From assembly GCA_905234745.1 (NCBI GenBank), contig CAJOJD010000006.1, positions 1 to 44,068 of the forward strand: a DNA stretch of 44,068 nucleotides, read 5' to 3'. This document shows, one piece after another, positions 2,109-31,750 of the stretch. How positions within the stretch are numbered: the stretch's first letter is position 1; every line of letters starts with the position of its first letter. Below the pieces are notes generated by a model that was not told where the DNA came from, searched no databases, and saw only the letters and a program-made list of their open reading frames with translations. The translations under genes and the position numbers were made by a program. The stretch comes from an uncultured Bacteroidaceae bacterium. GTDB lineage: Bacteria > Bacteroidota > Bacteroidia > Bacteroidales > Bacteroidaceae.

Positions 2109-2148
2109 GAGGCCGACTAAACACTGTTTTAGCCGGTCTCTTCTTTTT
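2109..2148 (+). terminator. Intrinsic terminator after metK
   Basis: A 13-position stem (2109-2121 with 2128-2140) has one G-T wobble and one mismatch, a 6-base loop, and is followed by TTCTTTTT. It lies 23 bases after the metK stop and just before the 83-bp repeat array. Confidence 0.8.
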
Positions 2149-2403
2149 CCGGTTCACCTTAGGGAGAGAATAGGCTACACCTGCGTGCTGGCTCCCTAAG
2201 GTCAGGGGGTAACGCAGATTCTGGCATTTTTCCGGCGCACCTTAGGGAGAGAATAGGCTACACCTGCGTGCTGGCTCCCTAAGGTCAGGGGGTAACGCAG
2301 GTTCTGGCATTTTTCCGGCGCACCTTAGGGAGAAAAATGGCTACACCTGCGTGCTGGCTCCCTAAGGTCAACGGGTGATGGCTCCCTAAGGTCAACGGGT
2401 GAC
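2144..2403. repeat. Tandem array 1 of the 83-bp palindromic repeat (3 units plus a 24-bp tail duplication)
   Basis: Units start at CACCTTAGGG at 2155, 2238 and 2321, an exact 83-bp period, and are nearly identical. Each unit holds an 11-bp inverted repeat, ACCTTAGGGAG and CTCCCTAAGGT, spanning 47 bp (for example 2156-2202) around a 25-base centre containing TACACCTGCGTG. A 36-bp link follows. At the right end a 24-bp piece (GGCTCCCTAAGGTCAACGGG and four more bases) is repeated at 2356-2379 and 2380-2403. The last copy runs into the 3' end of the transglycosylase gene and includes its stop codon. The array fills the gap between two convergent genes. No T-tract follows the hairpins, so plain terminator function is not obvious. 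Confidence 0.93.
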
Positions 2404-3309
2404 CCAGGCGGGGTTGTGGACTTTGGTTTTGGAGGGGTTGTAGTATTGGGCCTTTACATCGGGGATATCGATGTAATAGGTGCGGTGGGATTTGTTGTTG
2501 AGTTTGGTCTCACGCAGCCACAGGTTGGCCCGTTTAAGGTCGGCATATGTGATGCCGTGATCCTCGGCAAACTTGACCAGATCCTCGATGGGATCTGTAA
2601 TTTTAATCTGCTCCTTGATGGGGATATAGGGATAGAGATCCTCACGCTTGAAACTGAATCCAAACAGAGCCGGGTTCTCAAACATCATCTTGGCTGCAAT
2701 GACGCGGAACATATAACGGGAAGTCTCATCGACCAGCCACATATCCATTGCATCTGTCTGATGCTGCTGCTCAATGCGGCGGTCCATTCCCTGCTGGCCT
2801 CCGTTGTAACTGGCTGCCACCGTCATCCAGTTCTGGTATTTGCCGTACGCCTTGAGCAGGAACTTACAGGCGGCCTCGGTTGCCTTGACCGTGTTATAGC
2901 GCTCATCGATATTGGCATTGACCTCCAGTCCGTACTCGCGGCCGGTAGCCTGGGTGAACTGCCATAAACCCGCAGCACCCGCTCCCGATACGGCCTGAGG
3001 GTCAAGGTTGCTCTCAATCACCATCAGGTACTTGAAATCATCGGGCACACCCATGCGCTTGAGTATGGGTTCAATCTCCGGGAACAGACGGTTGGCGCGC
3101 TTTATCATGAGCGTGGACATATTGTGCGAGTAGGTAAAGGCTATAAGTTCACGGTCCATACGCTCCCTGAGGTCGGCACGGTCAAAAGTGATCTTCTGGC
3201 CGGCAAACACCACAGATTCAGGAACCTGGGGCGGTACAGTCTGGGCTTTTACGGAGATTATGAAACATGATATGACCGATATCAGGAACAGTAGTAATTG
3301 CCTTCTCAT
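2392..3309 (-). CDS. Secreted lytic transglycosylase (SLT domain, MltD-like)
   Basis: A 305-residue exported enzyme predicted to cleave the MurNAc-GlcNAc bond of peptidoglycan with anhydro-product formation. Residues 1-22 form a signal peptide ending near VKAQ. The SLT/goose-lysozyme-like domain covers about 85-215, with the catalytic glutamate in VIES (E99), the GAAGLWQFTQATGREYGL segment after it, and AASYNGG (165-171). The C-terminal 80 residues resemble a degenerate LysM-like region. MltD proteins usually carry clear LysM repeats, so this is a short form. The stop codon lies inside the terminal copy of the neighbouring repeat array, so the last residues (WVTR) are encoded by repeat-like DNA. 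A candidate -7 element lies just upstream on the same strand. Confidence 0.88.
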   Translation of the reverse strand: MRRQLLLFLISVISCFIISVKAQTVPPQVPESVVFAGQKITFDRADLRERMDRELIAFTYSHNMSTLMIKRANRLFPEIEPILKRMGVPDDFKYLMVIESNLDPQAVSGAGAAGLWQFTQATGREYGLEVNANIDERYNTVKATEAACKFLLKAYGKYQNWMTVAASYNGGQQGMDRRIEQQHQTDAMDMWLVDETSRYMFRVIAAKMMFENPALFGFSFKREDLYPYIPIKEQIKITDPIEDLVKFAEDHGITYADLKRANLWLRETKLNNKSHRTYYIDIPDVKAQYYNPSKTKVHNPAWVTR

Positions 3310-3329
3310 AAAACTTGACTTAAGTGGCG

Positions 3330-3337
3330 CAAAATTA
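3330..3337 (-). promoter_or_regulatory. Candidate -7 element for the transglycosylase gene
   Basis: On the minus strand TAATTTTG (followed by C) matches the TAnnTTTG element. It lies 20 bases before the ATG at 3309. I see no matching -33 TTG. Confidence 0.4.
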
Positions 3338-3359
3338 GGCTCTTTTCTTGAAATAACAT

Positions 3360-3367
3360 TATCTTTG
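3360..3367 (+). promoter_or_regulatory. -7 promoter element for the GH31 operon
   Basis: TATCTTTG followed by TTGC lies 34 bases before the ATG at 3402. It is the only clear promoter element ahead of the two coupled glycosidase genes. No good -33 element is visible at the expected distance. Confidence 0.55.
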
Positions 3368-3401
3368 TTGCACTAACCAAAATAAAACCCTGACAATCAT
3401 T

Positions 3402-5702
3402 ATGAAAAAAATTTGCTATCTGTTATTATTGGCAGTTTTGTCCTTATCCGCTTGCCAGAAGGCAACAGTGAAAATTGACGATTACAAGGTATTAATCGGC
3501 ATGTCCGACGGAACCCTTTACGTAACACCTATGGCCGATGACGCCATCCGCGTACAGTACATTCCCGATGGAATAGAACTGCCGCAGCTTGAAAACCTTA
3601 TTTATACAGAAAACCCTGCTCATCTATCAATAAGTTGCTCGCAGAATCTGAGAGGCCTGGTATATGTCAGCAGCACTGAAGGCAATCTCCGGGCGGTTGT
3701 CAACACCCGTAACGGAAAGATAAAATTCAAGGATGCCAACGGAAAGGTAATCCTTAAGGAGGATGTCCGTTCCATTCAGACCGGCAAGACAGGTGATCTG
3801 AATTCTCTCTCAGTAAGCCAGTCATTCAAGACCGCGCCCGATGAGTTTCTCTTTGGTACCGGCCAGTTCCAGGACGGCTATCTGAACATACGCGGACTGA
3901 CCCGCCGCCTTACCCAGGTCAACACCCAGATCTCTATCCCGATGATCATATCCAACAAGGGATACGGAATACTGTGGAACAACTACGGTCTGACAGAGTT
4001 TAACCCGTCAGACTACATGGTAGTTCTGGAGCAGGGTGCCGGCGACGGTACATCAGTAACTGTAAATGCAACCGGTACCGCAGGTAATGTTCGCGAGCGC
4101 CGTTTCTTTAACGATTTCAACGGTGAAATCGAGGTTAAGGAGAGCGGAGATTACTCAATACTGCTGGATGTTGGCCAGTCTATGGCCCGCAAGCATCTGC
4201 TCACCATTGACGGTGATACCGTTATCAACGCCAATAACACCTGGCTGCCGCCCACATCATCGGCCATAACCCATCTGGACAAGGGTACACATAAGGTATT
4301 TGTAAGCGGATCACGCGGTGACAAACCGTCGGTTGGCATACGCAAGGTGACCGATGTTACCACATTCAGTTCGCCCGTAGCTGTGGCACTTGACTACACC
4401 GTATTTGCCGGCACAGCCGACCAGATAATAAGTTCATACCGTAACCTTACCGGTAAGGTTCCGCCGATGCCCGACTGGGCTTTCGGTTACATTCACTGCC
4501 GAGAGCGTTATGACAGCCAGAAAGAGCTGCTTGAGAACGCACACCGTCTCAAGGACGAGGGCTACCACACCAGCGTGATTGTCCAGGACTGGCAGTGGTG
4601 GGGCAAGTACGGCTGGAACGCCATGCAGTTTGACGAGGGCAAGTACCCCGATCCCAAGGCCATGACCGACGAGCTGCACAGCATGGACATGAAACTTATG
4701 CTCTCCGTATGGTCCAAGATAGACAAGAACAGTGAGGTGGGCCGTCAGATGAACGCCGCCGGATATTACATTAAAGGAACCGACTGGATAGATTTCTTCA
4801 ATCCCGATGCAGCCGCAGCCTACTGGAAGAACTTCAGCGAGCGTTTGCTCCCCACCGGTATTGACGCATGGTGGCAGGATGCTACCGAGCCTGAGAACGA
4901 TGACCTGAAGGGCCGTATGGTGGCTGGAGGCAAAATTCCGGGAGAGTTCTACCGTAACGCCTACCCCAACATGGTCAACCATACCGTTTACAACGGACTC
5001 ATAAAGGACCAGCCCCACCGTGACCCAATGATACTTACCCGCAGCGGATTTACCGGAATACAGCGTTACGGCGCCATCAACTGGTCGGGTGATGTAGGCA
5101 ATGACTGGGAGACCCTGCGCCGTCAGATAGCAGGCGGTCTGAACCTGATGGCCACAGGCCAGCCCTGGTGGACATACGATGCAGGCGGATTCTTCCGTCC
5201 AAACAACCAGTACAGTGATGCCGCTTATCAGGAGCGTATGATGCGCTGGATTCAGACAGCAGTGTTCCTGCCGTTCATGCGTGTTCACGGTTACATGAGC
5301 CGCACCGAGCCCTGGAACTACTCGGCAGAGACACAGGCCAATTTCCACAAGCAGATAGAACTGCGTGACCGTCTGCAGCCATACATCCTGGATTGCGCCA
5401 AGAAAGTGAGCAATGAGAACTACACCATGATGCGTCCGCTGGTATTTGACTTCCCGGGTGACACCGAGGCTATGAAACAGCAGACAGAGTTCATGTTCGG
5501 ACCGTCACTGCTGGTATGCCCCGTAACCGAGCAGGGCATCAAGTCCATGCGCGTATATCTGCCCAGGTATGAGGCAGGCTGGAAACTCTTTGACTCCACA
5601 GACTCAAAGATCTACAACGGAGGCGCCTATGTGGAGGTGCCCGTAACCATTGACCGTATTCCGGTATTTGTAAAAGCTGATCATAAAATCAATCTGAAAT
5701 GA
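3402..5702 (+). CDS. GH31 family lipoprotein with PA14 insert, likely alpha-xylosidase or alpha-glucosidase
   Basis: A 766-residue surface or periplasmic glycosidase. The N terminus is a lipoprotein signal ending in LSAC (C18). A PA14-like beta domain is inserted at about residues 212-320, as in the Bacteroides ovatus xyloglucan alpha-xylosidase BoGH31A. The GH31 barrel follows, with the likely nucleophile D493 in WWQDATEP and the acid/base D564 in NWSGDVGNDW. The protein ends right after the proximal beta domain (PVFVKADHKINLK) and lacks the distal DUF5110 domain that its neighbour has. The next gene overlaps it by ATGA, so the two are translationally coupled. PA14 suggests xyloglucan-type substrates, but no SusC/SusD pair lies in the window and the exact sugar cannot be read from sequence. 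Confidence 0.9.
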   Translation: MKKICYLLLLAVLSLSACQKATVKIDDYKVLIGMSDGTLYVTPMADDAIRVQYIPDGIELPQLENLIYTENPAHLSISCSQNLRGLVYVSSTEGNLRAVVNTRNGKIKFKDANGKVILKEDVRSIQTGKTGDLNSLSVSQSFKTAPDEFLFGTGQFQDGYLNIRGLTRRLTQVNTQISIPMIISNKGYGILWNNYGLTEFNPSDYMVVLEQGAGDGTSVTVNATGTAGNVRERRFFNDFNGEIEVKESGDYSILLDVGQSMARKHLLTIDGDTVINANNTWLPPTSSAITHLDKGTHKVFVSGSRGDKPSVGIRKVTDVTTFSSPVAVALDYTVFAGTADQIISSYRNLTGKVPPMPDWAFGYIHCRERYDSQKELLENAHRLKDEGYHTSVIVQDWQWWGKYGWNAMQFDEGKYPDPKAMTDELHSMDMKLMLSVWSKIDKNSEVGRQMNAAGYYIKGTDWIDFFNPDAAAAYWKNFSERLLPTGIDAWWQDATEPENDDLKGRMVAGGKIPGEFYRNAYPNMVNHTVYNGLIKDQPHRDPMILTRSGFTGIQRYGAINWSGDVGNDWETLRRQIAGGLNLMATGQPWWTYDAGGFFRPNNQYSDAAYQERMMRWIQTAVFLPFMRVHGYMSRTEPWNYSAETQANFHKQIELRDRLQPYILDCAKKVSNENYTMMRPLVFDFPGDTEAMKQQTEFMFGPSLLVCPVTEQGIKSMRVYLPRYEAGWKLFDSTDSKIYNGGAYVEVPVTIDRIPVFVKADHKINLK

Positions 5703-8086: not shown

Positions 8087-8092
8087 ATTTTG

Positions 8093-8100
8093 TATCTTTG
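8093..8100 (+). promoter_or_regulatory. -7 promoter element for the methyltransferase-purD transcript
   Basis: TATCTTTG followed by C lies 22 bases before the ATG at 8123, in the short gap after the second GH31 gene. This placement suggests that the methyltransferase and purD form their own transcript. Confidence 0.55.
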
Positions 8101-8122
8101 CGGGCTGAAACATCATCCATAG

Positions 8123-9515
8123 ATGACAGAATTTGAAATGATAGCCAAGACCTTCCAGGGGCTGGAAGAGATTCTTGCAAAAGAACTTATTGATCTGGGA
8201 GCCAATGGGGTGGCCATTGGAAACCGAATGGTGTCTTTCAAAGGAGACAAGGCCCTGATGTACAAGGCCAATTTCCACCTGCGTACCGCAATCCGTATTC
8301 TTAAACCTTTCCTTCACTTCAAGGCCGACAGTGCCGATGAGGTTTATGAAATCTGCCGTAAGGTCGATTGGGAAAAGTATATGGACCTGAGCGACAGTTT
8401 CGCCGTCGACTCGGTGGTATACAGCGAGGATTTCCGCCACTCCAAGTTTGTGGCCTACAGGGTCAAGGATGCCATAGCAGACTTTTTCCGTGACAAATAC
8501 GGCAAACGCCCCAACGTGAGCGTAGCCAATCCGGACCTCACATTCCATATACATATCTCTCATGATGACTGCTCTCTGTCACTTGACAGCTCCGGCGAGT
8601 CACTGCACAAGCGCGGTTACCGTCAGGAGGCCATGGAGGCTCCTCTGAACGAGGTTCTGGCTGCAGGCATGATTCTTATGTCAGGATGGGACGGCAAGTG
8701 TGATTTTGTTGACCCTATGTGCGGATCGGGCACAATTCCCATCGAGGCCGCACTCATAGCCAAGAACATGGCGCCCGGTCTGTTCCGCAGCCACTTTGCT
8801 TTTGAGAAGTGGAAGGATTTTGACCGTGACCTGTTTGAAGAGATCTATAACGATGACTCCGCGGAGCGTGAGTTTGAGTTCAGCATAAAGGGTTACGACA
8901 AGGACCCAAAGGCCATACTGACCGCCAAGCGTAACGCCAAGGCCGCCGGTCTGCTGGACACAATCCAGTTTGAGCAGCGTGACTTCAAGGACTTTGAGCC
9001 CGTCAAGGAGCGCACCGTCATCATCACCAACCCGCCCTACGGCGAGCGTCTGGTCGAGGACAATCTGCTGGGCCTTTACGAGATGATAGGCGAACGCCTC
9101 AAGCATGCCCTGATAGGCGGTGAGGCCTGGATTATAAGTTACCACTACGAGTGCTTTCAAGCCGTCAGCCAAGATTCCTCTCTTTAACGGAGCCCTGCCC
9201 TGCGAGTTGCGCAAGTATGAGATCTTTGACGGCCGATACAATGAATTCCGCGGAGGTGACCGCCGTCTCAAGAAAGACAATCTGCCCACCCGCCGCAGCG
9301 GTACCCTTCGTCACAAGGCCCGCTTAGCAGAGAGAGAGGAGGCACGAAAGGCCGAGAAACCCTTCCACAAGACCGAGGAAAGAAAACCCTTCCATAAGAC
9401 TGAAGGGGGCAAACCTTTCCACAAATCAGAGGGAAAGAAGCCTTTCAAAAAGAGTGAAGGCAACAAGCCGTTCAGAAAAAGTGATAAAAAACCGTTCAGA
9501 AACAATAAGAAATGA
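8123..9515 (+). pseudogene. THUMP-domain class I RNA methyltransferase (RlmL-like), interrupted by a frameshift
   Basis: The first 340 or so residues hold an N-terminal ferredoxin-like/THUMP domain and a Rossmann methyltransferase domain, with the SAM-binding DPMCGSGTIPIEAALI and the catalytic TNPPYGERL. Family members methylate guanine N2 in 23S rRNA. The first frame stops at 9187 (QAVSQDSSL), but the family continuation KPSAKIPLFNGALPCELRKY is found in another frame from 9159 to 9515. The break is at about 9157-9159, where roughly four residues between YECF and KPSAK are missing, consistent with a deletion of about 14 bases. The 3' part ends in a lysine-rich tail and overlaps purD by ATGA, as intact genes here do. 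This is either a real recent lesion or a sequencing error; the second ORF is not a separate gene. Confidence 0.85.
9357..9512 (+). repeat. In-frame repeats encoding a basic KPFHK-type tail
   Basis: The C terminus of the methyltransferase is built from six imperfect units of 9-10 residues based on K-P-F-[HKR]-K-[ST]-[ED]. The DNA repeats carry synonymous changes, so they are not a fresh expansion. A long basic tail like this probably binds RNA or ribosomes; that is inference. Confidence 0.8.
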
Positions 9516-10783: not shown

Positions 10784-10840
10784 CAGTCACTGCATAACAT
10801 TAAATAACGGTCATTTGATAGCCCTTAACCTTTTAAGGAG

Positions 10841-10848
10841 TAACTTTG
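10841..10848 (+). promoter_or_regulatory. -7 promoter element for the DUF2723-deacetylase transcript
   Basis: TAACTTTG lies 34 bases before the ATG at 10883. A TTTG at 10814-10817 could be the -33 element, although 23 bases is a little long. Between them is a 16-bp inverted repeat, CCTTAA-CCTT-TTAAGG (10823-10838), which might be an operator. Confidence 0.5.
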
Positions 10849-10882
10849 GAGCTCTCAAACTAACCTTTAATCCATAGAAAGG

Positions 10883-19131: not shown

Positions 19132-19740
19132 ATGAAACGTATCATCATACTGTTGCTGACCATGGTTTTGTGCGTTCCTGCCTTTTGCACGGAGCCGGAG
19201 GATGACGACAAGCAGAAACGTGTGCTTGTGGCATTGGCTACCATCATTGACGGTGATACGGTGCCCACATTCGAGATGATGGAGGTTACCATCTACGGCA
19301 AGCGAATCTATCCTACCGCCCGCAAGCAGCGCAAATACGATAAACTGACCCGTAACGTACAGAAGATGTATCCCATTGCCCTTGAGGTGAAGGCCATACT
19401 CGTGGAGACATACCTTTACATGCAGACGCTGCAGGACGACAAGGCCCGTGAGGAGCATCTTGAGAAAGTTGAAAAAGGCGTTTGGGATCAGTATTATCCC
19501 ATAATGAAAAGATGCACCCTGTCACAGGGCAAGATCCTTATAAAACTCATTGACCGCGAATGTAACCAGACCAGTTTTGACCTGATCAAGGCATTCATCG
19601 GCGGTTTCAAAGCCAGATTCTATCAGTCATTCGCAGCTCTGTTCGGCGCCTCGCTCAAGAAGGAGTATGATCCCCAGCATGATGACGAGGATGCCATGAT
19701 TGAGGAAATCATCTGGATGATAGATAATGATATGCTGTAA
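19132..19740 (+). CDS. DUF4294 domain protein, exported
   Basis: A 202-residue protein typical of Bacteroidota. I place the start at 19132 (MKRIIILLLTMVLCVPAFC), which gives a signal peptide. The ATG at 19099 adds eleven polar residues and precedes the promoter-like TAATTTTG. The conserved core is DGDTVPTFEMMEVTIYGKR, then RKQRKYDKLTRNVQKMYPIA and KLIDRECNQTSFDLIKAF. The C terminus is acidic (DDEDAMIEEI). The family has no known function that I can name. The gene ends 2 bases before the first 31-bp palindrome, which separates it from ychF. Confidence 0.85.
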   Translation: MKRIIILLLTMVLCVPAFCTEPEDDDKQKRVLVALATIIDGDTVPTFEMMEVTIYGKRIYPTARKQRKYDKLTRNVQKMYPIALEVKAILVETYLYMQTLQDDKAREEHLEKVEKGVWDQYYPIMKRCTLSQGKILIKLIDRECNQTSFDLIKAFIGGFKARFYQSFAALFGASLKKEYDPQHDDEDAMIEEIIWMIDNDML

Positions 19741-19742
19741 AA

Positions 19743-19773
19743 TGACACAATGGGGTCAGACCCCTTTGTGTCA
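19743..19773. repeat. REP-like 31-bp palindrome, copy 1 (probable terminator)
   Basis: TGACACAATGGGG and CCCCTTTGTGTCA form a 13-bp stem with one T-T mismatch around TCAGA, followed by TTTTT. It starts 2 bases after the DUF4294 stop and ends just before the ychF promoter, so it can end one transcript before the next begins. Two near-identical copies occur at 21756 and 25861. Confidence 0.9.
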
Positions 19774-19780
19774 TTTTTAC

Positions 19781-20915: not shown

Positions 20916-20927
20916 ACCTTTTTGGAT

Positions 20928-21758
20928 ATGAACAGTTTTCTTGCAGTAATATGGAATCCGGACATTGAACTTTGCCGGATATTCGGGCTCCCCATCCGAT
21001 ACTACTCCCTTTTGTGGATGATAGGTCTGGTGGCCGCATACTTTATTGTCAAGAAACTCTATAGGGACCGCGGTATCAAGGATGAAACATACGAGCCTTT
21101 GTTCATTTACTGTTTCCTTGGAATCCTGATTGGAGCCCGTCTGGGTCACTGCATATTCTACGAACCCGAATACTACCTTTCCAGCGGCAAGCATTTCATA
21201 GAGATGCTGCTTCCCATACGCTTCTTGCCGCAGGGTGGCATCAAAATGGTAGGATACAGCGGACTGGCCAGTCACGGCGGTACCATCGGCATTATCATCG
21301 GCATGATCCTGTATTGCCGCAAATATAAGGTCAAGGTGCTGGAGTGCATCGATATGGTATGCGTGGCAACGCCGCTCACATCGGCCTGCATCCGCCTGGG
21401 TAACCTTATGAATTCCGAGATCGTGGGTAAGCCCACCGGCACTGACTGGGGTTTCATCTTTGTCCAGAACGGTGAGGATTTTGCTCGCCATCCGGCACAG
21501 CTCTACGAAGCAATCGCATACCTCATAATCTTTGCGGTGATAGTTCTTATTTACCGCAAGCACAAGGAAAAGATAGGTTCGGGATTCTACTTTGGATTCT
21601 GCATTGCCACCATCTTCATTTTCCGCTTCTTCATTGAGTTCTGCAAAGAGGTTCAGGTAGACTTTGAGCAGGGCATGGCTCTGGACATGGGCCAGATCCT
21701 TAGCATCCCCTTTGCCATCGGCGGCGTTTGGCTGATGCTCCACTCCCGCAAAAAATGA
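20928..21758 (+). CDS. lgt: Prolipoprotein diacylglyceryl transferase
   Basis: Lgt adds diacylglycerol from phosphatidylglycerol to the lipobox cysteine of prolipoproteins at the inner membrane, the first step in maturing lipoproteins such as the GH31 protein in this window. The protein has seven hydrophobic segments, the conserved GLASHGGTIG with the essential histidine (H116), and the signature RLGNLMNSEIVG. I start at the ATG at 20928 (MNSFLAVIWNP); a TTG two codons earlier is possible but unlikely. The stop codon TGA at 21756 is the first three bases of the second 31-bp palindrome, so insertion of that element probably set the present C terminus (HSRKK). Confidence 0.96.
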   Translation: MNSFLAVIWNPDIELCRIFGLPIRYYSLLWMIGLVAAYFIVKKLYRDRGIKDETYEPLFIYCFLGILIGARLGHCIFYEPEYYLSSGKHFIEMLLPIRFLPQGGIKMVGYSGLASHGGTIGIIIGMILYCRKYKVKVLECIDMVCVATPLTSACIRLGNLMNSEIVGKPTGTDWGFIFVQNGEDFARHPAQLYEAIAYLIIFAVIVLIYRKHKEKIGSGFYFGFCIATIFIFRFFIEFCKEVQVDFEQGMALDMGQILSIPFAIGGVWLMLHSRKK

Positions 21759-21792
21759 CACAAAGGGGTCAGACCCTATTGTGTTTTTTTTT
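21756..21792. repeat. REP-like 31-bp palindrome, copy 2, overlapping the lgt stop codon
   Basis: TGACACAAAGGGG, loop TCAGA, then CCCTATTGTGT followed by nine T residues. The stem has a G-T wobble and an A-A mismatch at the same place as the mismatch in copy 1. The first three bases are the lgt TGA. The stem and U-tract make a convincing terminator just before the gltS promoter. Confidence 0.9.
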
Positions 21793-21799
21793 ATCTTTG
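21792..21799 (+). promoter_or_regulatory. -7 promoter element for gltS-mutS
   Basis: TATCTTTG lies 24 bases before the gltS ATG and directly follows the T-tract of palindrome copy 2. Confidence 0.55.
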
Positions 21800-21823
21800 A
21801 AAGATATTTAAAACAGGAGAACT

Positions 21824-23242: not shown

Positions 23243-25863
23243 TGGCGCAGAACAAGTCCGAGGAAACTCCAATGATGAGGCAGTTCTACAGCCTCAAAGA
23301 GAAACATCCTGATGCCGTGCTCCTGTTCCGATGCGGTGACTTTTACGAGACATACGCACAGGACGCCGTCGAAGCCAGCCAGATTCTTGGCATAACCCTG
23401 ACCCGCCGCAACAACGGCAAGAACGGGGCTATGGCGCTTGAGATGGCGGGATTTCCTCATCATGCACTTGACGCCTATCTGCCCAAACTGATTCGTGCCG
23501 GCCGCCGTGTGGCCATCTGCGACCAGTTGGAAGATCCCAAACTTACCAAGACACTTGTAAAGCGCGGCATAACTGAACTTGTTACTCCCGGTGTCGCCAT
23601 GAGCGACAACGTACTGCAGAACAAGGAAAACAATTTCCTTGCAGCAGTTCACTTTGGCAAAGGCGCCTGGGGACTTTCGTTTCTGGACATATCCACCGGT
23701 GAGTATCTTATAGCCGAGGGCCCGGCCGACCATATAGACAAACTGCTTGCAAACTTTGCACCCAAGGAGGTGCTTATAGAGCGCGGCCGACGCCAGCAGT
23801 TCGGCCAGTCGTTCGGAACCCGATACTGCCTGCGCGAACTTGACGATTGGGTCTTTACCGATGACTTTGCACGCGAGCAGCTGAACCGCCATTTCAAGGT
23901 TCGTAACCTTAAGGGATTCGGCGTTGACCATCTGCGTAACGGTAAAGTTGCCGCAGGTGCCATATTGGAATATCTTGCAGAGACCCTGCACAACAACATA
24001 AGCCACATAACGTCAATCCGCATGATTGACGAGGAGCGTTACGTGCGCCTGGACAAGTTCACGGTCCGTAATCTGGAACTGATATCGGCCAACAGCGAGG
24101 ACGGTACGTCATTGCTCGATGTGATTGACCACACCTGCTCTCCTATGGGAGCACGCCTGTTGCGCCGCTGGATGCTCTTCCCGCTTAAGGATACATCGGC
24201 CATTAACCGTCGTCTGGATGTGGTTGACCATCTGTTCCGATATCCCGATACCGGTGATGCCCTGACCGAATCACTGCAACGTATGGGTGATGTGGAGCGA
24301 CTTATCTCAAAGGCTGCTGTCTGCCGCATCAACCCGCGTGAGGTTCTCAGCCTGGGTCAGGCCCTCAAACTGATGGAGCCCATCAAGATGATCTGCTCCG
24401 GATCAGAAAACAAACAACTGCAGGAGATAGGCGCTGGCATTGACCTATGCACTGAACTGCGTGAGGAGATTCTGCGTACCCTACGTCCCGATACCCCCAT
24501 GCTGGTAAGCAAGGGCGGCGTGATTGCCGATGGTGTAAATACCGAGCTTGACGAACTGCGCAGCATCGCTTACAGCGGCAAGGATTACCTGATGCAGATT
24601 CAGCAGCGCGAGGCTGAGATTACAGGCATTTCCAGCCTGAAGATTGCCTATAACAACGTATTCGGCTATTATCTCGAGGTTCGCAACACATTCAAGGACA
24701 AGGTGCCCGAGACCTGGATCCGCAAGCAGACCCTGGTCAATGCAGAGCGTTACATCACTCCTGAGCTAAAGGAGTATGAGGAGAAGATTCTGGGGGCCGA
24801 GGACAAGATTCTTGCACTTGAAACCCAATTGTTCGGTGAGTTGGCACAGTCCATTCTCAAATACGTACCCGCAATCCAGAACAATGCCGTTCTGATAAGC
24901 CAGTTGGACTGCCTGCTCTCATATGCCAAGGTATCACGTGAACGTAAGTATGTACGTCCAGTGGTGGACGAGAGCAATATAATTGACATTCATGAGGGCC
25001 GACATCCGGTAATCGAAACCCAGATGGCACCCGGCGACAGTTACATATCAAACAACGTCCTGATAGACAGCGACAGCCAGCAGATACTCATCATAACCGG
25101 TCCCAATATGGCCGGTAAATCGGCACTTTTGCGTCAGACCGCACTCATCACGCTGATGGCCCAGATGGGTTGTTATGTACCCGCCGAGAGCGCACGCATA
25201 GGAATGGTGGACCGCATATTCACCCGTGTGGGTGCCAGCGATAACATATCGGCCGGAGAATCAACGTTCATGGTCGAAATGACCGAGGCTGCAAGCATCC
25301 TGAACAACTTGACTCCCCGCAGTCTGGTACTCTTTGATGAACTTGGCCGCGGAACATCCACATATGATGGCATTTCCATTGCGTGGGCAATCGTTGAGTA
25401 TATTCACGAGCACCCATCGGCCCATGCCCGTACGCTTTTTGCAACTCACTATCATGAGCTGAATGAGATGGCCAAATCGTTCAGTCGTATACGCAATTAC
25501 AACGTATCGGTCCGTGAGGTTGACGGCAAAGTACTGTTCCTGCGCAAACTTGTACCGGGAGGCTCGGAGCACTCGTTCGGTATCCATGTGGCCGAGATGG
25601 CGGGAATGCCGCGCAGCATAGTGAAACGCGCCGGTTCAATTCTTAAGGAGATGGAAGAGAGCGGAAGCGGAAAGAGCATTTCACGTCCCAGCGTAGAGAC
25701 CGGTCAGCACCGTGAAGGCCTGCAGATGAGTTTCTTCCAGCTGGATGATCCCGTACTCTGTCAGATACGCGACCAACTGCTCTCAATTGATGTCAACAAC
25801 CTGACACCCATCGAGGCTCTGAACAAACTCAACGACATCAAGAAGATCCTGAAGGGAAAATGA
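23242..25863 (+). CDS. mutS: DNA mismatch repair protein MutS
   Basis: MutS recognises mismatches and starts their repair. The 873-residue protein has the mismatch-binding F-x-E motif in [11 protein letters not shown] near the N terminus, connector, lever and clamp domains, Walker [12 protein letters not shown] (from residue 620), Walker B in [15 protein letters not shown] and the H-loop FATHYHEL. The length is standard for MutS1, and the C terminus ends with the tetramerisation-type [18 protein letters not shown]. It is coupled to gltS. The stop codon is the first three bases of palindrome copy 3. No mutL is present in the window. Confidence 0.98.
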
Positions 25864-25891
25864 CACAAAGGGGTCAGACCCTATTGTGTCA
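25861..25891. repeat. REP-like 31-bp palindrome, copy 3, between convergent genes
   Basis: Its left arm TGACACAAAGGGG is identical to copy 2, and its right arm CCCTATTGTGTCA completes the palindrome. It starts with the mutS TGA and ends 1 base before the stop of the threonine aldolase-like gene, so it fills the whole gap and can serve both strands as terminator. Confidence 0.9.
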
Positions 25892-25892
25892 T

Positions 25893-26915
25893 TTAAAGCT
25901 TGGATATGAACTCATCGATATCGGCGGCCGATGTGTTCCAACTGGTCACGAATCGGACCACACTCTGCTGCGGACCGCAGGGAGCCCAGATCTCGAACGA
26001 TGCAAACTTGCTGATGCGCTCAATCTCCTTTTTGGGAAGGCAGAAGAATTGCTGGTTGGTGGGAGAGTCCACATAAGGTGAAAAGCCTTTGGCAATCATT
26101 GCTTTCTTGAGTCTCAAAGCCTGTTGTACGGCATTGCCGGCTATTTCAAGATAGAGGTTGTCAGTAAACAGAGTGCTGAACTGTACACCCAGCAGACGGC
26201 CCTTGGCCAGCATAGCACCATGCTGCTTTACAAAGGTGAAGAAACGGGGCAACAACTCAGGATGAGCAGTAACAACAGCCTCACCGAACATAGCACCGAC
26301 CTTGGTTCCACCTATATAGAACACATCGCAAAGACGTGCTATATCCTTAAGCGTAACATCCTTTGATGCAGCCAGACCGTAACCCAGACGGGCACCATCC
26401 ATATAGAGAGGTATCTTGTACTTGTGGCAGACACGGCTCAAAGCCTCCAGTTCACCAAGTGAGTAAAGTGTGCCCCACTCTGTCGGGAAAGAAAGGTAAA
26501 GCGCACCCGGTGATACCATATGCTGATGGTTCTCGTTCTCATAGAACTCATTGAGGTAACGCTCAATATCATATGCCGCAACCTTGCCCTGATGTGAGGG
26601 AACAATCAGGATCTTGTGGCCCGATGACTCCACGGCGCCGGCCTCAAGGTTATTGATGTGGGCTACATCGGATGCCATAATGCCCTCATACTGGTGGAGC
26701 AGACCATCTATTACGGTTGCATTGGCCTGGGTTCCACCCACAAGGAAACGTACCAGCGCATCGGGACAGCCGCAAGCCTCGCGGATAAGGTCTGCAGCAC
26801 GACGGGTATAATCATCCTCGCCGTAACCTACCGTCTGTTCAAGATTGGTCTCAACAAGACGCTGCATCACCGTCGGATGCGCGCCCTCCATATAATCGGA
26901 ATCAAAATGAAGCAT
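25893..26915 (-). CDS. Low-specificity L-threonine aldolase-like PLP enzyme (beta-eliminating lyase family)
   Basis: A fold-type I PLP enzyme predicted to split threonine or related beta-hydroxy amino acids to glycine and an aldehyde. With the start at 26915 (MLHFDSDYMEGAHP) it has 341 residues, the usual length. H86 in DVAHINNLEAGAVE stacks on PLP, D173 in YMDGARLGYG binds the pyridine nitrogen, and K205 in YIGGTKVGA is the Schiff-base lysine. The frame is open up to an ATG at 26987, but that adds a hydrophobic run that lies upstream of the TACATTTG promoter element and is probably not translated. It diverges from the DUF362 gene. Confidence 0.9.
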   Translation of the reverse strand: MLHFDSDYMEGAHPTVMQRLVETNLEQTVGYGEDDYTRRAADLIREACGCPDALVRFLVGGTQANATVIDGLLHQYEGIMASDVAHINNLEAGAVESSGHKILIVPSHQGKVAAYDIERYLNEFYENENHQHMVSPGALYLSFPTEWGTLYSLGELEALSRVCHKYKIPLYMDGARLGYGLAASKDVTLKDIARLCDVFYIGGTKVGAMFGEAVVTAHPELLPRFFTFVKQHGAMLAKGRLLGVQFSTLFTDNLYLEIAGNAVQQALRLKKAMIAKGFSPYVDSPTNQQFFCLPKKEIERISKFASFEIWAPCGPQQSVVRFVTSWNTSAADIDEFISKL

Positions 26916-26935
26916 AATCATGAATTTTGTGAATG

Positions 26936-26943
26936 CAAATGTA
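26936..26943 (-). promoter_or_regulatory. -7 promoter element for the threonine aldolase-like gene
   Basis: On the minus strand TACATTTG followed by C fits TAnnTTTG. It lies 20 bases before the ATG at 26915, which supports that start over the one at 26987. Confidence 0.5.
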
Positions 26944-27003
26944 ATGATTATCCATTTCAAAAAGTAAATTCGCATCATAAACCACATTAATAAACTTACC
27001 GAT

Positions 27004-28119
27004 ATGGCATCGAAAGTCTTTTATACTGACCTCAGGACCGATCCGGACCATCATCTGCTGTACAAACTTGAAAAACTGGTACGCAAAGCCGGCATAGGCA
27101 ATATTGATTTCAACGGCAAATTCACCGCAATCAAGATACACTTTGGCGAGATAGGTAACATGGCTTATCTAAGGCCCGATTATGCAGCCGTAATTGTAAA
27201 GATCATCAAGGATTTGGGCGGAAAGCCATTCCTGACCGACTGCAACACCCTGTACAAAGGATGGCGCTCAAATGCCATAGACCATCAGGACACCGCCATG
27301 AAGCATGGCTACACCCCCTTTGCCGTAGGCACGCAGGTGGTTATTGCCGATGGCCTGAAAGGTCTTGATTATGTGGAGGTTCCCATTGACGGTGAGTATT
27401 GCAAGGCGCCCAAAATCGGTGCAGCCATTGCCGAGGCCGATATCATTGTATCAATCAACCACGTAAAGGGTCATGAGATGACCGGACTGGGCGGCGCAAT
27501 GAAAAACCTGGGTATGGGCTGCGGCAGTGTGGCCGGCAAGAAGGAGATGCACAGCGCCTCAAAGCCCCGCATTGACACCGAATCCTGTCGCGGATGCTCA
27601 CTCTGTGTAAAGAACTGCGCCAGCCATGCCATATCGCTTGTGGACCGCAAGGCCGTCATTGACTATAACAAATGCGTAGGATGCGGACAGTGTGTGGCCA
27701 CATGTCAGTTTGAGGGAGCCATAGCCGATAATGACGAGCAGCTGGACGTTCTGAACTGCAAGATTGCCGAGTACGCCAAAGCCACCCTGCTTGGCAAGCC
27801 CAACTTCCACATTAACCTGATAATGGACGTATCGCCCGAGTGTGACTGTTGGGGTTATAATGATACTCCGGTTGTACCCAACATCGGCATGCTGGCTTCA
27901 TTTGATCCCGTAGCAATAGACTGCGCCAGCGCCGACCTGGTAAACCGCACCCCGACAATACCCAACGATAACGTGCTGGCACACAACATTGAACACCACA
28001 AACACGACCACGGAGACCACTGGCACATGATCCACCCCGACACCAACTGGCGCTCATGCGTGGAACATGCCCAGAAGATCGGTCTGGGATCTATGGACTA
28101 CACTTTAATCACGGTCTAG
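27004..28119 (+). CDS. DUF362 protein with two 4Fe-4S ferredoxin motifs
   Basis: A 371-residue cytoplasmic protein. The N-terminal 190 residues are a DUF362 domain (KIHFGEIGNMAYLRPDYAA, then INHVKGHEMTGLGGAMKN). After it come two ferredoxin-type motifs, CRGCSLCVKNCASHAI and CVGCGQCVATCQFEGAI, each C-x2-C-x2-C-x3-C, for two 4Fe-4S clusters. The C terminus has cysteines in DVSPECDCWGYND and a histidine-rich NIEHHKHDHGDHWH that may bind metal. The family is common in anaerobes and thought to be redox-active, but its reaction is not established. Its 3' end overlaps the convergent GNAT gene by 15 bases. Confidence 0.92.
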   Translation: MASKVFYTDLRTDPDHHLLYKLEKLVRKAGIGNIDFNGKFTAIKIHFGEIGNMAYLRPDYAAVIVKIIKDLGGKPFLTDCNTLYKGWRSNAIDHQDTAMKHGYTPFAVGTQVVIADGLKGLDYVEVPIDGEYCKAPKIGAAIAEADIIVSINHVKGHEMTGLGGAMKNLGMGCGSVAGKKEMHSASKPRIDTESCRGCSLCVKNCASHAISLVDRKAVIDYNKCVGCGQCVATCQFEGAIADNDEQLDVLNCKIAEYAKATLLGKPNFHINLIMDVSPECDCWGYNDTPVVPNIGMLASFDPVAIDCASADLVNRTPTIPNDNVLAHNIEHHKHDHGDHWHMIHPDTNWRSCVEHAQKIGLGSMDYTLITV

Positions 28120-28626
28120 TCTCATGATGCGGACCGGGCGGTCTGCACCCACTTCAAGGTTAGGGCACAGCGTTTCGCGGCCTGTATCCTTAAAACCGCA
28201 TTTTTCCATTACGCGGCCCGATGCGGGGTTCTCGGGGAAATAGTCTCCCCATAAAACCGTGAACCCTTTAACGTCGAAGCAATAATCTATGACCAGTTTC
28301 AAAGCTTCTGTACAGATACCCTTACCCCAATAAGGATGACCTATCCAATAACCTACCTCGCACTGGTCGCTGGGTATATTCAGGTTGGAGTTTTCAGCCG
28401 GAAGATAACCGGCACAGCCTATGGCCTCGCCGGTTTCTTTCAAAACTACCGCCCACATAGTATCGGTATTGAATACGGTCTTTATTATCTGCAGGCTCTC
28501 CTCAACGCTCTTATGAGGAGGCCAGCCTGCACGAGGTCCCACATCGGGATCGGATGCATATTTGAACAGCGCATCGGCATCACTCTCCTGCCACTTGCGC
28601 AATAAGATTCTGTCTGTTTCCATCAT
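28105..28626 (-). CDS. GNAT N-acetyltransferase (RimJ/RimL-like)
   Basis: A 173-residue single-domain GNAT protein of the Acetyltransf_3 type. It begins METDRILLRKWQESDADALF, and the acetyl-CoA loop is in GYWIGHPYWGKGICTEALK, followed by ENPASGRVMEKCGF, which is typical of the RimJ group. Substrates of such proteins range from ribosomal N termini to antibiotics and cannot be told here. The start overlaps the stop of the acyltransferase gene by ATGA (the second ATG one codon on is also possible). The 3' end overlaps the DUF362 gene tail to tail. Confidence 0.9.
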   Translation of the reverse strand: MMETDRILLRKWQESDADALFKYASDPDVGPRAGWPPHKSVEESLQIIKTVFNTDTMWAVVLKETGEAIGCAGYLPAENSNLNIPSDQCEVGYWIGHPYWGKGICTEALKLVIDYCFDVKGFTVLWGDYFPENPASGRVMEKCGFKDTGRETLCPNLEVGADRPVRIMRLDRD

Positions 28627-29717
28627 TTCTTCTCACCGAATACGCACCAGCGGATGAACGGGATGCGATGCAGCACCTCGTAAATGAGCGGTGACAATGT
28701 AAATACCGCAACCGTCAGTATCAGGTATATTGCAACTGGAGGCAGTTGGGTGTATGTCTTCATCATATATCCCAGACTGGCCACTACCAGATAGTGCACA
28801 ATGTAGAGGCCATAACTGGTACGGGTCATATACTGCGAGAAACCGTTGGTGCAGTCATATCGGGCGTTGAACCAACCCATCATGGCAAGACACATAAGCC
28901 AACCGTAAAGGCTGTTCAGAGGTGTACCCATATACTCAGGTGATGTGTTGTTCTCACCCCACGTGGTAATAATCAGAACTGCTCCCGAAATCACAGCGGC
29001 TGCCATAAGCGGGATCCATGCCTTGCGAACCTTTTCCTGAACTTCATCATGCGAGAACACAAAGTATCCAAGCAGGAACGATATCAGATAGAAGACTGGC
29101 TTGTAGAGATTCATCAGACCATCGGCCGAATCAGGACGCGGATTCTTGATGAGCGTCTGTTCGCCCAGCCAGAACAGGATTCCCAGCAGAACAATCACTA
29201 CAATTCCGCTTTTACCGCATAATGTCCAGAGTTTGTCTTTACCGTCAATTTTGCGTATAAGCAAAAGGACTAAAGAGAGCAGCCACAGTAACTGTATAAA
29301 CCACAACGGACCGGTTCCGCTCACAGCATAAATGCCGTATTTGACAGGTATTGGCAAATCACCGACAATGGTACCGGCGGGAATGGCATTGAAATAACCA
29401 ATCATCCAATGGAATACAAAGAGGCCGATGGTTCCGGGCACAAGTAACTTGCGGGTACGGGTCTTGAACCACTCCTTTCCTGTCTTGTTCTGAAGTGAGT
29501 ATCGGGCACTGATACCAGCCAGTATGAACATAAGGGGCATGAACCAGGGATAGACAATGTACATAAGTATATCCTGATACTGCTGTACCTCCGGGAACTC
29601 TCCAAATCCGCCTATACCGCCAAAAACACCCTTGTTGTTGTAATAATAGATAACGTGATATAACAGCACCAGCAACACCGTTGTCCAGCGCAGATTGTCA
29701 ATCCAATGCTTTCTCAT
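28623..29717 (-). CDS. Membrane acyltransferase, acyltransferase-3 (OafA-like) family
   Basis: A multi-pass inner-membrane protein with about ten hydrophobic helices. The start region RKHWIDNLRWTTVLLVLLYH carries the conserved D-x-L-R and the helix-1 histidine, and RYSLQNKTGKEWFKTRTRKLLVP is the usual cytoplasmic loop. The family moves acetyl or other acyl groups onto sugars of surface glycans. I use the ATG at 29717 (MRKHWIDN, 364 residues). ATGs at 29756 and 29783 are also in frame, and the last would overlap the upstream gene by 17 bases. It belongs to a minus-strand run with short gaps or overlaps, so co-transcription is likely. Confidence 0.85.
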   Translation of the reverse strand: MRKHWIDNLRWTTVLLVLLYHVIYYYNNKGVFGGIGGFGEFPEVQQYQDILMYIVYPWFMPLMFILAGISARYSLQNKTGKEWFKTRTRKLLVPGTIGLFVFHWMIGYFNAIPAGTIVGDLPIPVKYGIYAVSGTGPLWFIQLLWLLSLVLLLIRKIDGKDKLWTLCGKSGIVVIVLLGILFWLGEQTLIKNPRPDSADGLMNLYKPVFYLISFLLGYFVFSHDEVQEKVRKAWIPLMAAAVISGAVLIITTWGENNTSPEYMGTPLNSLYGWLMCLAMMGWFNARYDCTNGFSQYMTRTSYGLYIVHYLVVASLGYMMKTYTQLPPVAIYLILTVAVFTLSPLIYEVLHRIPFIRWCVFGEKK

Positions 29718-29766
29718 TTTGTAAGGCCCTCCATAGCCTGATTGATAATGTTCCATAAAGAAACGT

Positions 29767-30288
29767 TTATTTAAGTTTACCATTCAATATACGGTTGCGG
29801 ACGCAGTTCACTGCGGGTTTGAAAAACTCCGGCTCCATGGATTCGAGCGTCGCTTTGAACTCTGCCAGGAGTTCTGGGTAGTACTTGCACATACGATAAG
29901 CCAGTTTCATGCTGATGGACTGGATCCCGGGCAGTTCATCGGCATCGGCCATATGTTCCAGGCAAAAATCAAGAAAGTCTGTCCTAAGATCATCCTCCTT
30001 CATCTCCAGGCGCTCAACAATATTGAGTGAAAGCCTGCGGACCGATGAACTGGGCGTAGTCAGAGCCAAATCTATAAGTTCTTTAAGGATAGACTGCAAT
30101 TGCGATAGTTCCTTATCCGTAGCCTTGGTCAAAGTCCAAAACGCATTCCGGGCCACCCGTTCATCTTCACTATGCATGAACCTGCAGGCAAAGCCCACGA
30201 AATCACCCGTCCGCTTTATCTCCCGATAAACGGCCTGTGCATCGACCTCATTCTTTACAGCCCTTATGATTTCTTCATTTATCTCCAT
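29767..30288 (-). CDS. Conserved helical-repeat protein of unknown function
   Basis: A 173-residue soluble, almost wholly helical protein (VARNAFWTLTKAT, SSVRRLSLNIVERL, IQSISMKLAYRMCKYYPEL) with the spacing of HEAT-like repeats. I do not recognise a named family. No signal peptide or catalytic motif is seen. The ATG (30286-30288) lies in a 13-bp sequence that is repeated 72 bp upstream in the end of the preceding gene. Before that insertion the two genes would have overlapped, so they were probably translationally coupled. Confidence 0.75.
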   Translation of the reverse strand: MEINEEIIRAVKNEVDAQAVYREIKRTGDFVGFACRFMHSEDERVARNAFWTLTKATDKELSQLQSILKELIDLALTTPSSSVRRLSLNIVERLEMKEDDLRTDFLDFCLEHMADADELPGIQSISMKLAYRMCKYYPELLAEFKATLESMEPEFFKPAVNCVRNRILNGKLK

Positions 30289-30367
30289 CGTTTGACTTCG
30301 TCTTACTCTGTCGCGACTCGGCCATCTCCAAGCAAGCTTGGATGGCTCTCACTGCTCCATCGTTTGA
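30283..30367. mobile_element. 72-bp palindromic insertion flanked by 13-bp direct repeats
   Basis: CTCCATCGTTTGA occurs at 30283-30295 and again at 30355-30367. The 59 bases between hold an 8-bp palindrome GTCGCGAC (30310-30317) and a hairpin (30321-30346: GCCAT plus CCAAGC, loop AA, GCTTGG plus ATGGC). Removing one repeat copy and the insert joins the upstream gene to a codon AGA and a TAA stop that overlap the next start. This indicates insertion or duplication into an overlapping gene pair. It is too small to code for its own mobility. Confidence 0.7.
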
Positions 30368-31229
30368 GCATCGGGAAGAATCCATACATCATTTGCTTGT
30401 ACTCATCCTTAGTCATGGGTTTAGGCATGTTCTTGTTAACCTCATCGACAAACTGGGCGCAGTGATCAATCATCTGGTCCATTGTCATATCCTGTAGGAA
30501 ATGTCCATCCTTATAGCAGTACTGGCAATAGTCAAAGTTGGTGCTACCGTCAGCATTGGTTCCGCAATCCTCTACACGGGTAAGCGGCATTCCGCAACTC
30601 TGGCAGAACTGGGGCAGCTGTCCCTCACGGAAAGCCTTAACCTTATTGGGGAACGTGGCATCATACGCCTCAAACGCATCGGGATTAGCATCGGCCGCAA
30701 AATAACCCTGCGGAGGGCAATATGTTGCCTCTATGCCGCCAAGCCAGCCGGGAATAAGCTCCTGAGCCAGGAAATACGGCACCTCTGCATCCTTTGGCTC
30801 CGAATGATAATGGATGCCCAGCCTGCTGGCCAGTCCGAATCCCGCATGCTTGTAGAAATCAATATTTCCCTCCATGCAAAGGAAGCCCACACCCATCTCA
30901 CGCGCCTTATCCAGAGTATAATTCAACAGCTTAAGTCCATAACCCTTACGCTTGTAATCCGGATGAATGCTGATAGGACCGAAAGTCCACGACGGCTTGC
31001 GTGAACCATCGGCCAACAACAACTCCGCCTTTGAGAACATAACATGACCGATAATCCGTCCGTCCTCCTCCATCACAAAATCCAGCTCCGGAATAAAGTC
31101 AGGATTGTTCCTATACTGATTAAGCACATAATGCTCCACACATCCCGGTTTATAAACATTCCAAAACGCCTCACGGGTAAGTTCCTCAACAACCCGATAG
31201 TCATCCGGCCTCTCAAGTCTTATATTCAT
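30303..31229 (-). CDS. GNAT acetyltransferase fused to a zinc-ribbon domain
   Basis: A 308-residue two-domain protein. Residues 1-175 are a GNAT fold (MNIRLERPDDYRVVEELTRE; acetyl-CoA loop in PDYKRKGYGLKLLNYTLDKA). Residues about 207-290 are a putative zinc-ribbon domain with CQSCGMPL and CQYCYKDG, four cysteines for one zinc, ending in the conserved YGFFPMLKRW. The final 17 residues (SSESHPSLLGDGRVATE) are not part of the domain: they come from the 72-bp insertion and replace an inferred original ending of one arginine and a stop. The substrate is unknown. A TATATTTG element lies upstream on the same strand. Confidence 0.9.
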   Translation of the reverse strand: MNIRLERPDDYRVVEELTREAFWNVYKPGCVEHYVLNQYRNNPDFIPELDFVMEEDGRIIGHVMFSKAELLLADGSRKPSWTFGPISIHPDYKRKGYGLKLLNYTLDKAREMGVGFLCMEGNIDFYKHAGFGLASRLGIHYHSEPKDAEVPYFLAQELIPGWLGGIEATYCPPQGYFAADANPDAFEAYDATFPNKVKAFREGQLPQFCQSCGMPLTRVEDCGTNADGSTNFDYCQYCYKDGHFLQDMTMDQMIDHCAQFVDEVNKNMPKPMTKDEYKQMMYGFFPMLKRWSSESHPSLLGDGRVATE

Positions 31230-31248
31230 GATTGTCTATATTTATCCA

Positions 31249-31256
31249 CAAATATA
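31249..31256 (-). promoter_or_regulatory. -7 promoter element for the GNAT-zinc-ribbon transcript
   Basis: On the minus strand TATATTTG fits TAnnTTTG and lies 19 bases before the ATG at 31229. It separates the gene from the nearby repeat array. Confidence 0.5.
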
Positions 31257-31269
31257 ATCATTTTCTTCT

Positions 31270-31750
31270 ACCCCCCCCACCTTAGGGAACTGTAGCGCAC
31301 GTAGAGCCATTTTAATCCCTAAAATGAGCACGAAATACGCTTTCTCGCGGGTGGACCCCTCACCTTAGGGAGCTGTAACGCACGTAGAACCATTTTCTTC
31401 CCTAAGGTGGGCACGAAATACGCTATATCGCAGGTGGACCCCGCACCTTAGGGAGCTGTAGCGCACGTAGAAACGATTTCTTCCCTAAGGTGCACGGGAA
31501 AAACGGAATATCGCGGGAGGACCCCTCACCTTAGGGAACTGTAGCGCACGTAGGACCATTTCCATCCCTAAGGTGAGCGGGAAATACGCTTTCTCGCGGG
31601 CGCCCCCTGCACCTTAGGGAGCCGTAACGCAGGTAGGAACGTTTTCATCCCTAAGGTGAGCGGGAAATACGCTTTCTCGCGGGAGGACCCCGCACCTTAG
31701 GGAACAATAACGCACGTAGAAACGTTTTCTTCCCTAAGGTGGGTGGGAAA
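31270..31750. repeat. Tandem array 2 of the 83-bp palindromic repeat (6 units)
   Basis: Units start at CACCTTAGGGA at 31278, 31361, 31444, 31527, 31610 and 31693, an exact 83-bp period throughout. Each has ACCTTAGGGA and TCCCTAAGGT arms spanning 47 bp around GTARCGCACGTAG, then a link with GGGAAATACGC and TCGCGGG. Unit 1 has a decayed right arm (TCCCTAAAAT). Units differ by scattered substitutions but never in length. The array occupies most of the 594-bp space between two divergent genes and ends 47 bases before the leuS promoter element. No open reading frame or terminator T-tract accompanies it. Confidence 0.95.

Follow-up and report, generated by a model that had tools for sequence, protein, structure and literature searches.

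In the systems known as REPtrons, a gene for an HUH/tyrosine enzyme is described as flanked by its own hairpin repeats, whose type is specific to each gene; non-autonomous copies are scattered between genes, and tandem clusters adjoin the gene (PMC6006769, PMC3116915, PMC8266576). Here we analyse two tandem arrays of 83-bp hairpin units, array 1 and array 2, in a 44,068-nucleotide stretch from an uncultured Bacteroidaceae bacterium (assembly GCA_905234745.1, contig CAJOJD010000006.1)—hereafter called the “window”. We propose that the arrays are non-autonomous mobile repeats, similar to repetitive extragenic palindromes (REPs) and bacterial interspersed mosaic elements (BIMEs), of a diverged lineage of HUH (Y1) transposases resembling the REP-associated tyrosine transposases (RAYTs). 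Judging from the sequences, we give this reading a probability of roughly 77%. It draws on the dispersal, fixed geometry and intergenic position of the arrays, on empty sites, and on the linkage, co-divergence and co-occurrence of the arrays with a gene for a 322-residue protein, which lies between two such arrays in congeners.

The closest counterparts are the REPtrons of E. coli and Pseudomonas, which combine a RAYT (TnpAREP) with BIMEs or REP doublets forming hairpins (REPINs), and which likewise have a flanked gene, dispersed intergenic copies, a gene-specific repeat type and tandem clusters. The present system differs in its unit of 83–95 bp with a fixed period, in the lack of a GT[AG]G tag at the hairpin foot, and in its protein of about 322 residues, which has a long C-terminal extension and no WQ motif. 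Moreover, 90 of 101 arrays hold at least two units, whereas most Pseudomonas REPINs are described as single (PMC3116915). TnpAY1 subclass 2.6 is similar in its Bacteroidetes hosts, its atypical flanking structures without GT[AG]G and its copies elsewhere in the genome. However, the subclass 2.6 proteins are described with a median length of 179 residues and the WQ and YIH[QN]NP motifs (PMC6006769), whereas in the longer protein found here FD stands in place of WQ (in clade A, that of the transposase found next to recA) and the tyrosine motif ranges from YCLRNG to YVLKNP. Subclasses 2.1 and 2.3 (TIRYT) share the long proteins with C-terminal extensions, but they were reported without REP-like sequences (PMC6006769), in contrast to the flanking arrays found here. 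Because subclasses 2.1 and 2.3 lack REPs and the subclass 2.6 proteins are short in these published descriptions, the system looks like a variant outside the described TnpAY1 subclasses. No description of such arrays was recognised in the literature, as far as titles and abstract openings tell. The first-pass annotation, made from the window sequence, knew of no named element with these features. As to the exact sequence this holds, since neither array matched at gathering score in an Rfam search of the window, where the sole match was a SAM-II riboswitch; the kind of element is known, however, as the arrays behave like REP/BIME-type repeats.

With this assignment, an otherwise nameless repeat would gain a probable enzyme, and the RAYT/REP partnership would extend to long, divergent HUH proteins that score below curated profiles. 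A single genus here brings together intact loci, enzyme/repeat pairs at several levels of divergence, vacant sites and arrays that are apparently orphans, and is a good natural set for following enzyme–hairpin co-evolution, tandem array formation and the survival of repeats after enzyme loss.

Geometry and distribution of the repeat

Array 1 and array 2 had been described as diverged homologues in opposite orientation, of equal length and differing at about half of their non-arm positions. The gapless alignment of the reverse-complemented array 1 to array 2 confirms this far beyond chance: 31 of the 63 non-arm positions are identical between the arm-anchored consensus sequences, as compared to 16.2 ± 3.4 in shuffles (maximum 31 in 20,000; p about 1e-4) and 23 in the wrong orientation. 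Within the 27-nt interior alone, 12 positions match in the right orientation and 4 in the wrong one. At non-arm positions, the scores of the nine units in the window against a profile built only from units of other genomes range from +30 to +69 bits, whereas shuffled units average −75 ± 16 bits (maximum −21). By alignment and profile alike, the similarity outside the arms therefore lies far above that of shuffles. The opposite orientation itself seems to have no special meaning, because both orientations share one contig elsewhere too (e.g. L045, L058, L063 and L087).

Scans of many genomes support the view that the repeats form a single family, dispersed and diverged between loci. In the window genome (an 80% complete assembly of 2.2 Mb in 115 contigs), we count 15 exact arm pairs and 0 of the reversed control. 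Among 61 genomes (37 of the genus, whose members are bacteria of gut and rumen, and 24 from other families of the order), the pair is present in 16, every one of them a member of the genus; the highest number of exact copies in a single genome is 87. A relaxed arm pattern matches 22 of the 37 genus genomes; the other 15 have no match to these arm types. The reversed control of the relaxed pattern matches once in each of 11 genomes and never in the other 26, so that a lone match, as in G005, may be due to chance. A scan of GTDB r220 contigs with free arm spacing (20–35) yielded 82 stretches, and among the 80 listed, 74 come from 15 Bacteroidales assemblies, mostly with rumen or gut names, and 6 from other taxa. 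In an order-wide sample of 393 genomes, the TTAGGGA core matched in the window's own genome only. Within the viral contigs of the IMG/VR set, the exact arm pair was absent and no relative of the transposase was confirmed.

We next describe the unit. The survey, which allowed up to two arm mismatches, comprises 304 units in 101 arrays among the loci fetched by then, with L001–L004 (duplicates), L008–L019 and the six rows of other taxa set aside. The consensus reads CCCCCTS-ACCTTAGGGA-(27)-TCCCTAAGGT-GAGCNGRAAATACGC..., and the interior carries ACGCA-C/G-GTA-G/C. Because units were found by their arms, the near-invariance of the arms partly reflects this selection. The spacing was recounted without constraint: the outer arm length is 47 in 233/233 exact pairs outside the six rows of other taxa, which have lengths of 40, 42, 48 or 50 instead, and of 203 distances between successive unit starts, 184 are 83 bp. 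The preservation of period 83 and arm distance 47, proposed from the two window arrays, is thus upheld. Most arrays are short, with two units in 34 arrays, three in 30, one in 11, four in 10, six in 8, five in 6, and eight and nine in one each. Unit orientation is uniform within arrays except in seven, each with one flip in exact 83-bp register; several of these seven are orthologous, and the flips could have arisen by exchange between inverted arms.

The arrays lie between genes: 94 of 101 overlap no mechanical open reading frame (ORF) of at least 80 residues by more than 50 bases, and the other seven overlap short ORFs of 81–131 residues. The four neighbour-gene arrangements occur near background frequency (86 arrays with both neighbours in view; the background includes array gaps). 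In single-stranded form, the window's arm hairpins are predicted to be more stable than shuffled sequences (z −4.2 and −2.7), and so are the link hairpins (z −2.5 and −2.8). The only clear covarying pair of the hairpin interior is 20–24, where C-G is swapped for G-C around a GTA loop, and GTAG stands inside the loop in 151 of the 304 units. By inspection, the link looks like an inverted, longer version of the interior.

A transposase-like gene between arrays of relatives

Which enzyme could act on these repeats? The first-pass annotation had suggested looking for a linked transposase or recombinase; such a gene is present in relatives, but not in the window. A listing of genes between closely spaced arrays brought up the same 322-residue gene in five contigs (L045, L059, L064, L066 and L079), each time with an array on either side; four of them have it in the recA–dnaK interval, and L045 has it between tex and recA. 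A homologue of at least 91% identity is present in six congeners, and 83-bp arrays flank it on both sides in 6/6 (Tandem Repeats Finder). The two counts are not independent, because five of the six genomes look, by name and identity, like the same assemblies. In L064, a 169-residue partial ORF (3–509) with an HPH motif and no Pfam or NCBIfam match lies beside dnaK and the transposase gene.

The arms change together with the gene. The G031 homologue (62% identity) has arms ACGTTAGGGA with a period of 83; the G016 homologue (53%), arms ACGATAGGGA with a period of 84 and a right-hand array 1 kb away; the G034 homologue (52%), arms AGGATAGGGA with a period of 84; the G013 homologue (48%), arms GTTAGGGA with 28 bases between them; and a second G031 gene, a 43% paralogue, arms TAGTGTCCGC with a period of 95 bp. 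Inverted repeats lie on both sides of each of these five genes—accordingly, of 4/4 homologues at 48–62% identity—and the complementarity of the arms is kept through all arm-type changes. Genome-wide, the TTAGGGA pattern with 27-base spacing occurs 20 times in G031 and 0 times in G016, G034 and G013, whereas TAGGGA with a spacing of 27 or 28 occurs 43, 37 and 6 times in the latter three (counted as pattern matches). At control loci, long arrays on both sides are found at 0/20 ordinary RAYT, 0/30 leuS and 1/30 metK loci, and on at least one side at 0, 2 and 3, respectively. The recA loci, 2/16 with arrays on both sides, are the transposase's own neighbourhood. Five relatives of the protein, encoded by long RAYT-like genes, were fetched from another family of the order; long tandem arrays enclose three of them (L235, L236 and L238; periods of 52, 84 and 73/146 bp), the array sequences being unrelated, and a fourth has one on one side only.

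Gene and repeat also co-occur. With the relaxed arm pattern, copies are present in 10/10 genomes that have a homologue of at least 48% identity (6–87 copies) and in 12/27 without one (0–19 copies; Fisher p 0.002), and at least five copies in 10/10 versus 6/27 (p 2e-5); these tests ignore the shared ancestry of the genomes.

The protein itself carries an HUH and single-tyrosine signature: H50-x-H52, Y107 and H114-H115 are invariant in 16/16 aligned members. A weak alignment (E 0.16) with E. coli TnpAREP (4er8) places Y107 within the YIxxNP region of that protein. Matches of the family to known profiles are all weak, with 13 of 16 members reaching REP_Tyr_transpos at E <= 0.01 (best 7.5e-9) and 14 of 16 reaching Y1_Tnp at E <= 0.1; the 322-residue protein scores 15.9 bits against Pfam Y1_Tnp (E 0.014; cut-off 23). 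In a maximum-likelihood tree, the 16 members form one clade (support 100/99) apart from 17 ordinary RAYTs of the genus, three further RAYT loci without a usable reading frame being left out.

Several observations weigh against our interpretation. As to the protein, its score against NCBIfam REP_Tyr_transpos (1e-6, 28.7 bits) is far below the curated cut-off of 80; none of the 16 members has WQ at the aligned place (FD, LD, GP, AE or GD instead); and the NP of the Y---NP motif, a RAYT hallmark, is found only in G034, G016, G013 and G016b, being replaced by NG in clade A, both G031 genes and the 40% group, and by QG in G018. The AlphaFold2 model, made with five close homologues as input, is too poor for a fold assignment (predicted local distance difference test score, pLDDT, 41; predicted template modelling score 0.30), although the strand and helix order of its residues 3–110 is compatible with a Y1 domain. 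As to the repeat, the interior shows no RNA-type covariation beyond the pair 20–24, the clade A arms being too invariant to inform; the folding advantage over shuffles is slight for whole 83-nt units (z −2.2 and −1.7); and a GT[AG]G/GGAG tag near the hairpin foot occurs in just 4 of the 304 units on one strand and in 5 on the other. As to linkage, Tandem Repeats Finder reports long arrays on both sides of only 1/4 of the homologues at 48–62% identity, and on at least one side of 3/4. Among more distant family members in the genus, 8/10 lack long arrays at their flanks, and in one of the remaining two the repeats (54/91 bp) may be of another kind; some other distant members show short inverted repeats. 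Finally, 12 genomes carry copies and no detected homologue of at least 48% identity. Of these, 11 are 78–90% complete and one, G017 with a single copy, is 100% complete, which makes it difficult to distinguish gene loss from missing sequence. In G028, with 7 copies, no relative of the gene was detected.

Spread, descent and alternative explanations

How would such arrays form and spread? In the mechanism that we propose, each 83-bp unit would, when single-stranded, form a hairpin from its inverted arms, with a stem of about 10 bp and some structure in the loop, and neighbouring units could additionally pair via the link. The complete locus would consist of an array, the transposase gene and a second array. 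The enzyme would bind its own arm and loop type in single-stranded DNA, cleave it and rejoin it, and copies would thereby be seeded into intergenic gaps, where the units would multiply through tandem duplication of one or several units. A genome without an apparent cognate enzyme, such as that of the window, would keep its inherited arrays as orphans.

A further-reaching version is tentative, and we lean against it. The long RAYT-like HUH enzymes of Bacteroidales might act on fixed-period hairpin arrays, rather than on single REPs, as the mobile and selected unit, with cutting and rejoining itself generating multi-unit arrays—for instance, through repeated passage round a circular single-stranded intermediate. 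Periods that are constant for each enzyme type (52, 73, 83, 84 and 95 bp) and the dominance of multi-unit arrays would follow from such a process.

Empty sites were sought by joining the flanks of each array and searching them against the fetched loci. At the leuS site, L023 has an array and five loci have none, one of which aligns closely across the junction; downstream of metK, L058 has an array and six loci have none. The window lacks another array of L058, upstream of metK. No target duplication is evident at these diverged flanks. Insertion is the presumed direction, the sites themselves not polarising gain and loss.

These sites bear on the most serious alternative, in which the arrays are regulatory or chromosome-structuring sites of the host, used by a nucleoid or partition protein and kept by selection, and the transposase-like gene is a linked user. 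This would account for the 47/83 geometry and the near-invariant arms (in part a product of finding units by their arms), for the intergenic position, for the same orientation in all 59 orthologous array pairs, and for the persistence of arrays where the enzyme seems absent. We nevertheless consider it unlikely, given that several congeners lack the array at two loci, that 15 of the 37 genus genomes have no match to these arm types, that neighbour arrangements, divergent ones included, are near background, and that the arm sequence changes together with the transposase.

The uniformity of units within each locus had been ascribed to concerted evolution. Interior identity is indeed higher within arrays (0.748) than between different arrays in the same genome (0.653, with 0.652 and at most 0.674 in shuffles), as calculated for 99 of the 101 arrays after leaving out two loci without a listed title. 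However, the 59 orthologous pairs across assemblies, which cover 54 of the 99 arrays, have a within-array identity of 0.730 and a between-species identity of 0.732, the former being higher in 27 of 58. Homogenisation is therefore unsupported, and the uniformity is mostly shared descent. There is some local tandem duplication besides, as in array 1 and in the 249-bp super-period of array 2. One exception, window array 1 paired with its L058 counterpart (within 0.85, between 0.46), is compatible with replacement or local re-amplification.

Could tandem repeats that need no enzyme explain the pattern? An ancient insertion family, spread by segmental duplication and changing in copy number by slippage, fits the super-periods (249 bp in array 2 and 166–250 bp elsewhere) and the equality of within-array and orthologous identity, and because of these features duplication and vertical descent do explain much of the present pattern. 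As the whole explanation it is improbable, in view of arrays that are present or absent between otherwise aligned flanks, of up to 87 exact copies per genome and of the co-divergence with the transposase gene.

Mobilisation of the 83-bp arrays by the ordinary RAYTs of the genus (Pfam Y1_Tnp positives) is least credible and was rejected: such RAYTs are present in 23 of the 37 genomes, and array 2 is directly adjoined by a REP of their type, but the arms are absent from 20/20 of their fetched loci, which instead carry other-REP motifs (GGGGACGGTTC or GGGGTCAGACCCC types, one mismatch allowed; at least one at 16/20 and at least two at 15/20), and the array-rich genomes G009, G026 and G010 have no match to such a RAYT. 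The canonical REPs of these two types are likewise short palindromes beside RAYTs, and occur in the window as well; their RAYT loci, however, have no long tandem array at 20/20, and their transposases form a separate clade. CRISPR and integron attC arrays (as generally defined) were set aside, since no unique spacers or cassettes lie between the units.

Returning to the proposed transposase lineage, we compare the neighbourhood of recA between contigs. As compared to L059 and L066, recA is reversed between two oppositely oriented arrays in L079, and L045 has the order tex–transposase–recA, as would be expected from a further inversion between the outer arrays. Because the order and orientation of recA and the transposase differ between opposed arrays, the arrays seem to act as sites of homologous recombination. 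In G005 (L254), an ordinary RAYT gene with GGGGACGGTTC REPs lies downstream of recA; as it occupies the place of the clade A transposase, this gap may be an insertion hot spot.

In the window genome, dnaK directly follows recA, and neither an arm pair nor a transposase lies within 1.5 kb of recA; the recA–dnaK gap is also short in G020, G029 and G017. Four of the six arrays of the window genome have an orthologous array in a transposase-carrying assembly. The genome carries an intact 40% relative of the transposase (G000 C48), whose flanks are of another type. Since no such gene lies beside recA, the window's arrays are probably orphans of an enzyme lost in this species, as judged from an assembly that is 80% complete.

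The window arrays and their surroundings

The coordinates are collected in Table 1. Array 1, whose 10-nt arms ACCTTAGGGA and TCCCTAAGGT enclose 27 bases, has 2.7 copies of period 83 at 2144–2370 (95% match; Tandem Repeats Finder, also for array 2) and ends, up to 2402, in a 24-bp partial duplication of one end. The last codons and the stop codon (2392–2394) of the transglycosylase SLT gene lie inside this end, and we conclude that the array 1 insertion reached the 3′ end of the gene; by inspection of alignments, relatives with the empty site keep the gene's own stop there. In array 2, the right arm of the first unit is degenerate. Period 83 covers 31273–31750 with 5.8 copies (83% match), and the three-unit super-period of 249 bp outscores it (719 vs 583).

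Table 1. Features of the window at and around the two arrays
Feature	Position	Strand	Details
SAM-II riboswitch, upstream of metK	665–741		Rfam RF01726, 49.8 bits
metK (S-adenosylmethionine synthetase), left of array 1	793–2085	+	Pfam PF00438/PF02772/PF02773
Array 1	2144–2402	-	Three 83-bp units; arm pairs start at 2156, 2239, 2322
Transglycosylase SLT gene, right of array 1	2392–3309	-	PF01464
GNAT acetyltransferase with zinc ribbon, left of array 2	30303–31229	-	PF00583, PF12674
Array 2	31270–31752	+	Six 83-bp units; arm pairs start at 31279, 31362, 31445, 31528, 31611, 31694
leuS (leucyl-tRNA synthetase), right of array 2	31824–34658	+	PF13603, PF08264

Other repeats are also present in the window. 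Tandem repeats of 24–27 bp (9357–9509) lie inside a 102-residue ORF (9207–9515) without a Pfam match. A REP of the GAACCGTCCCC type (31747–31784) abuts the right end of array 2, ahead of leuS, and this motif also flanks ordinary RAYTs in relatives. Three 38-bp palindromes of REP type (AAATGACACAA..GGGGTCAGACCC..), at 19739–19776, 21752–21789 and 25857–25894, belong to a type that is also found beside ordinary RAYTs in the same genus.

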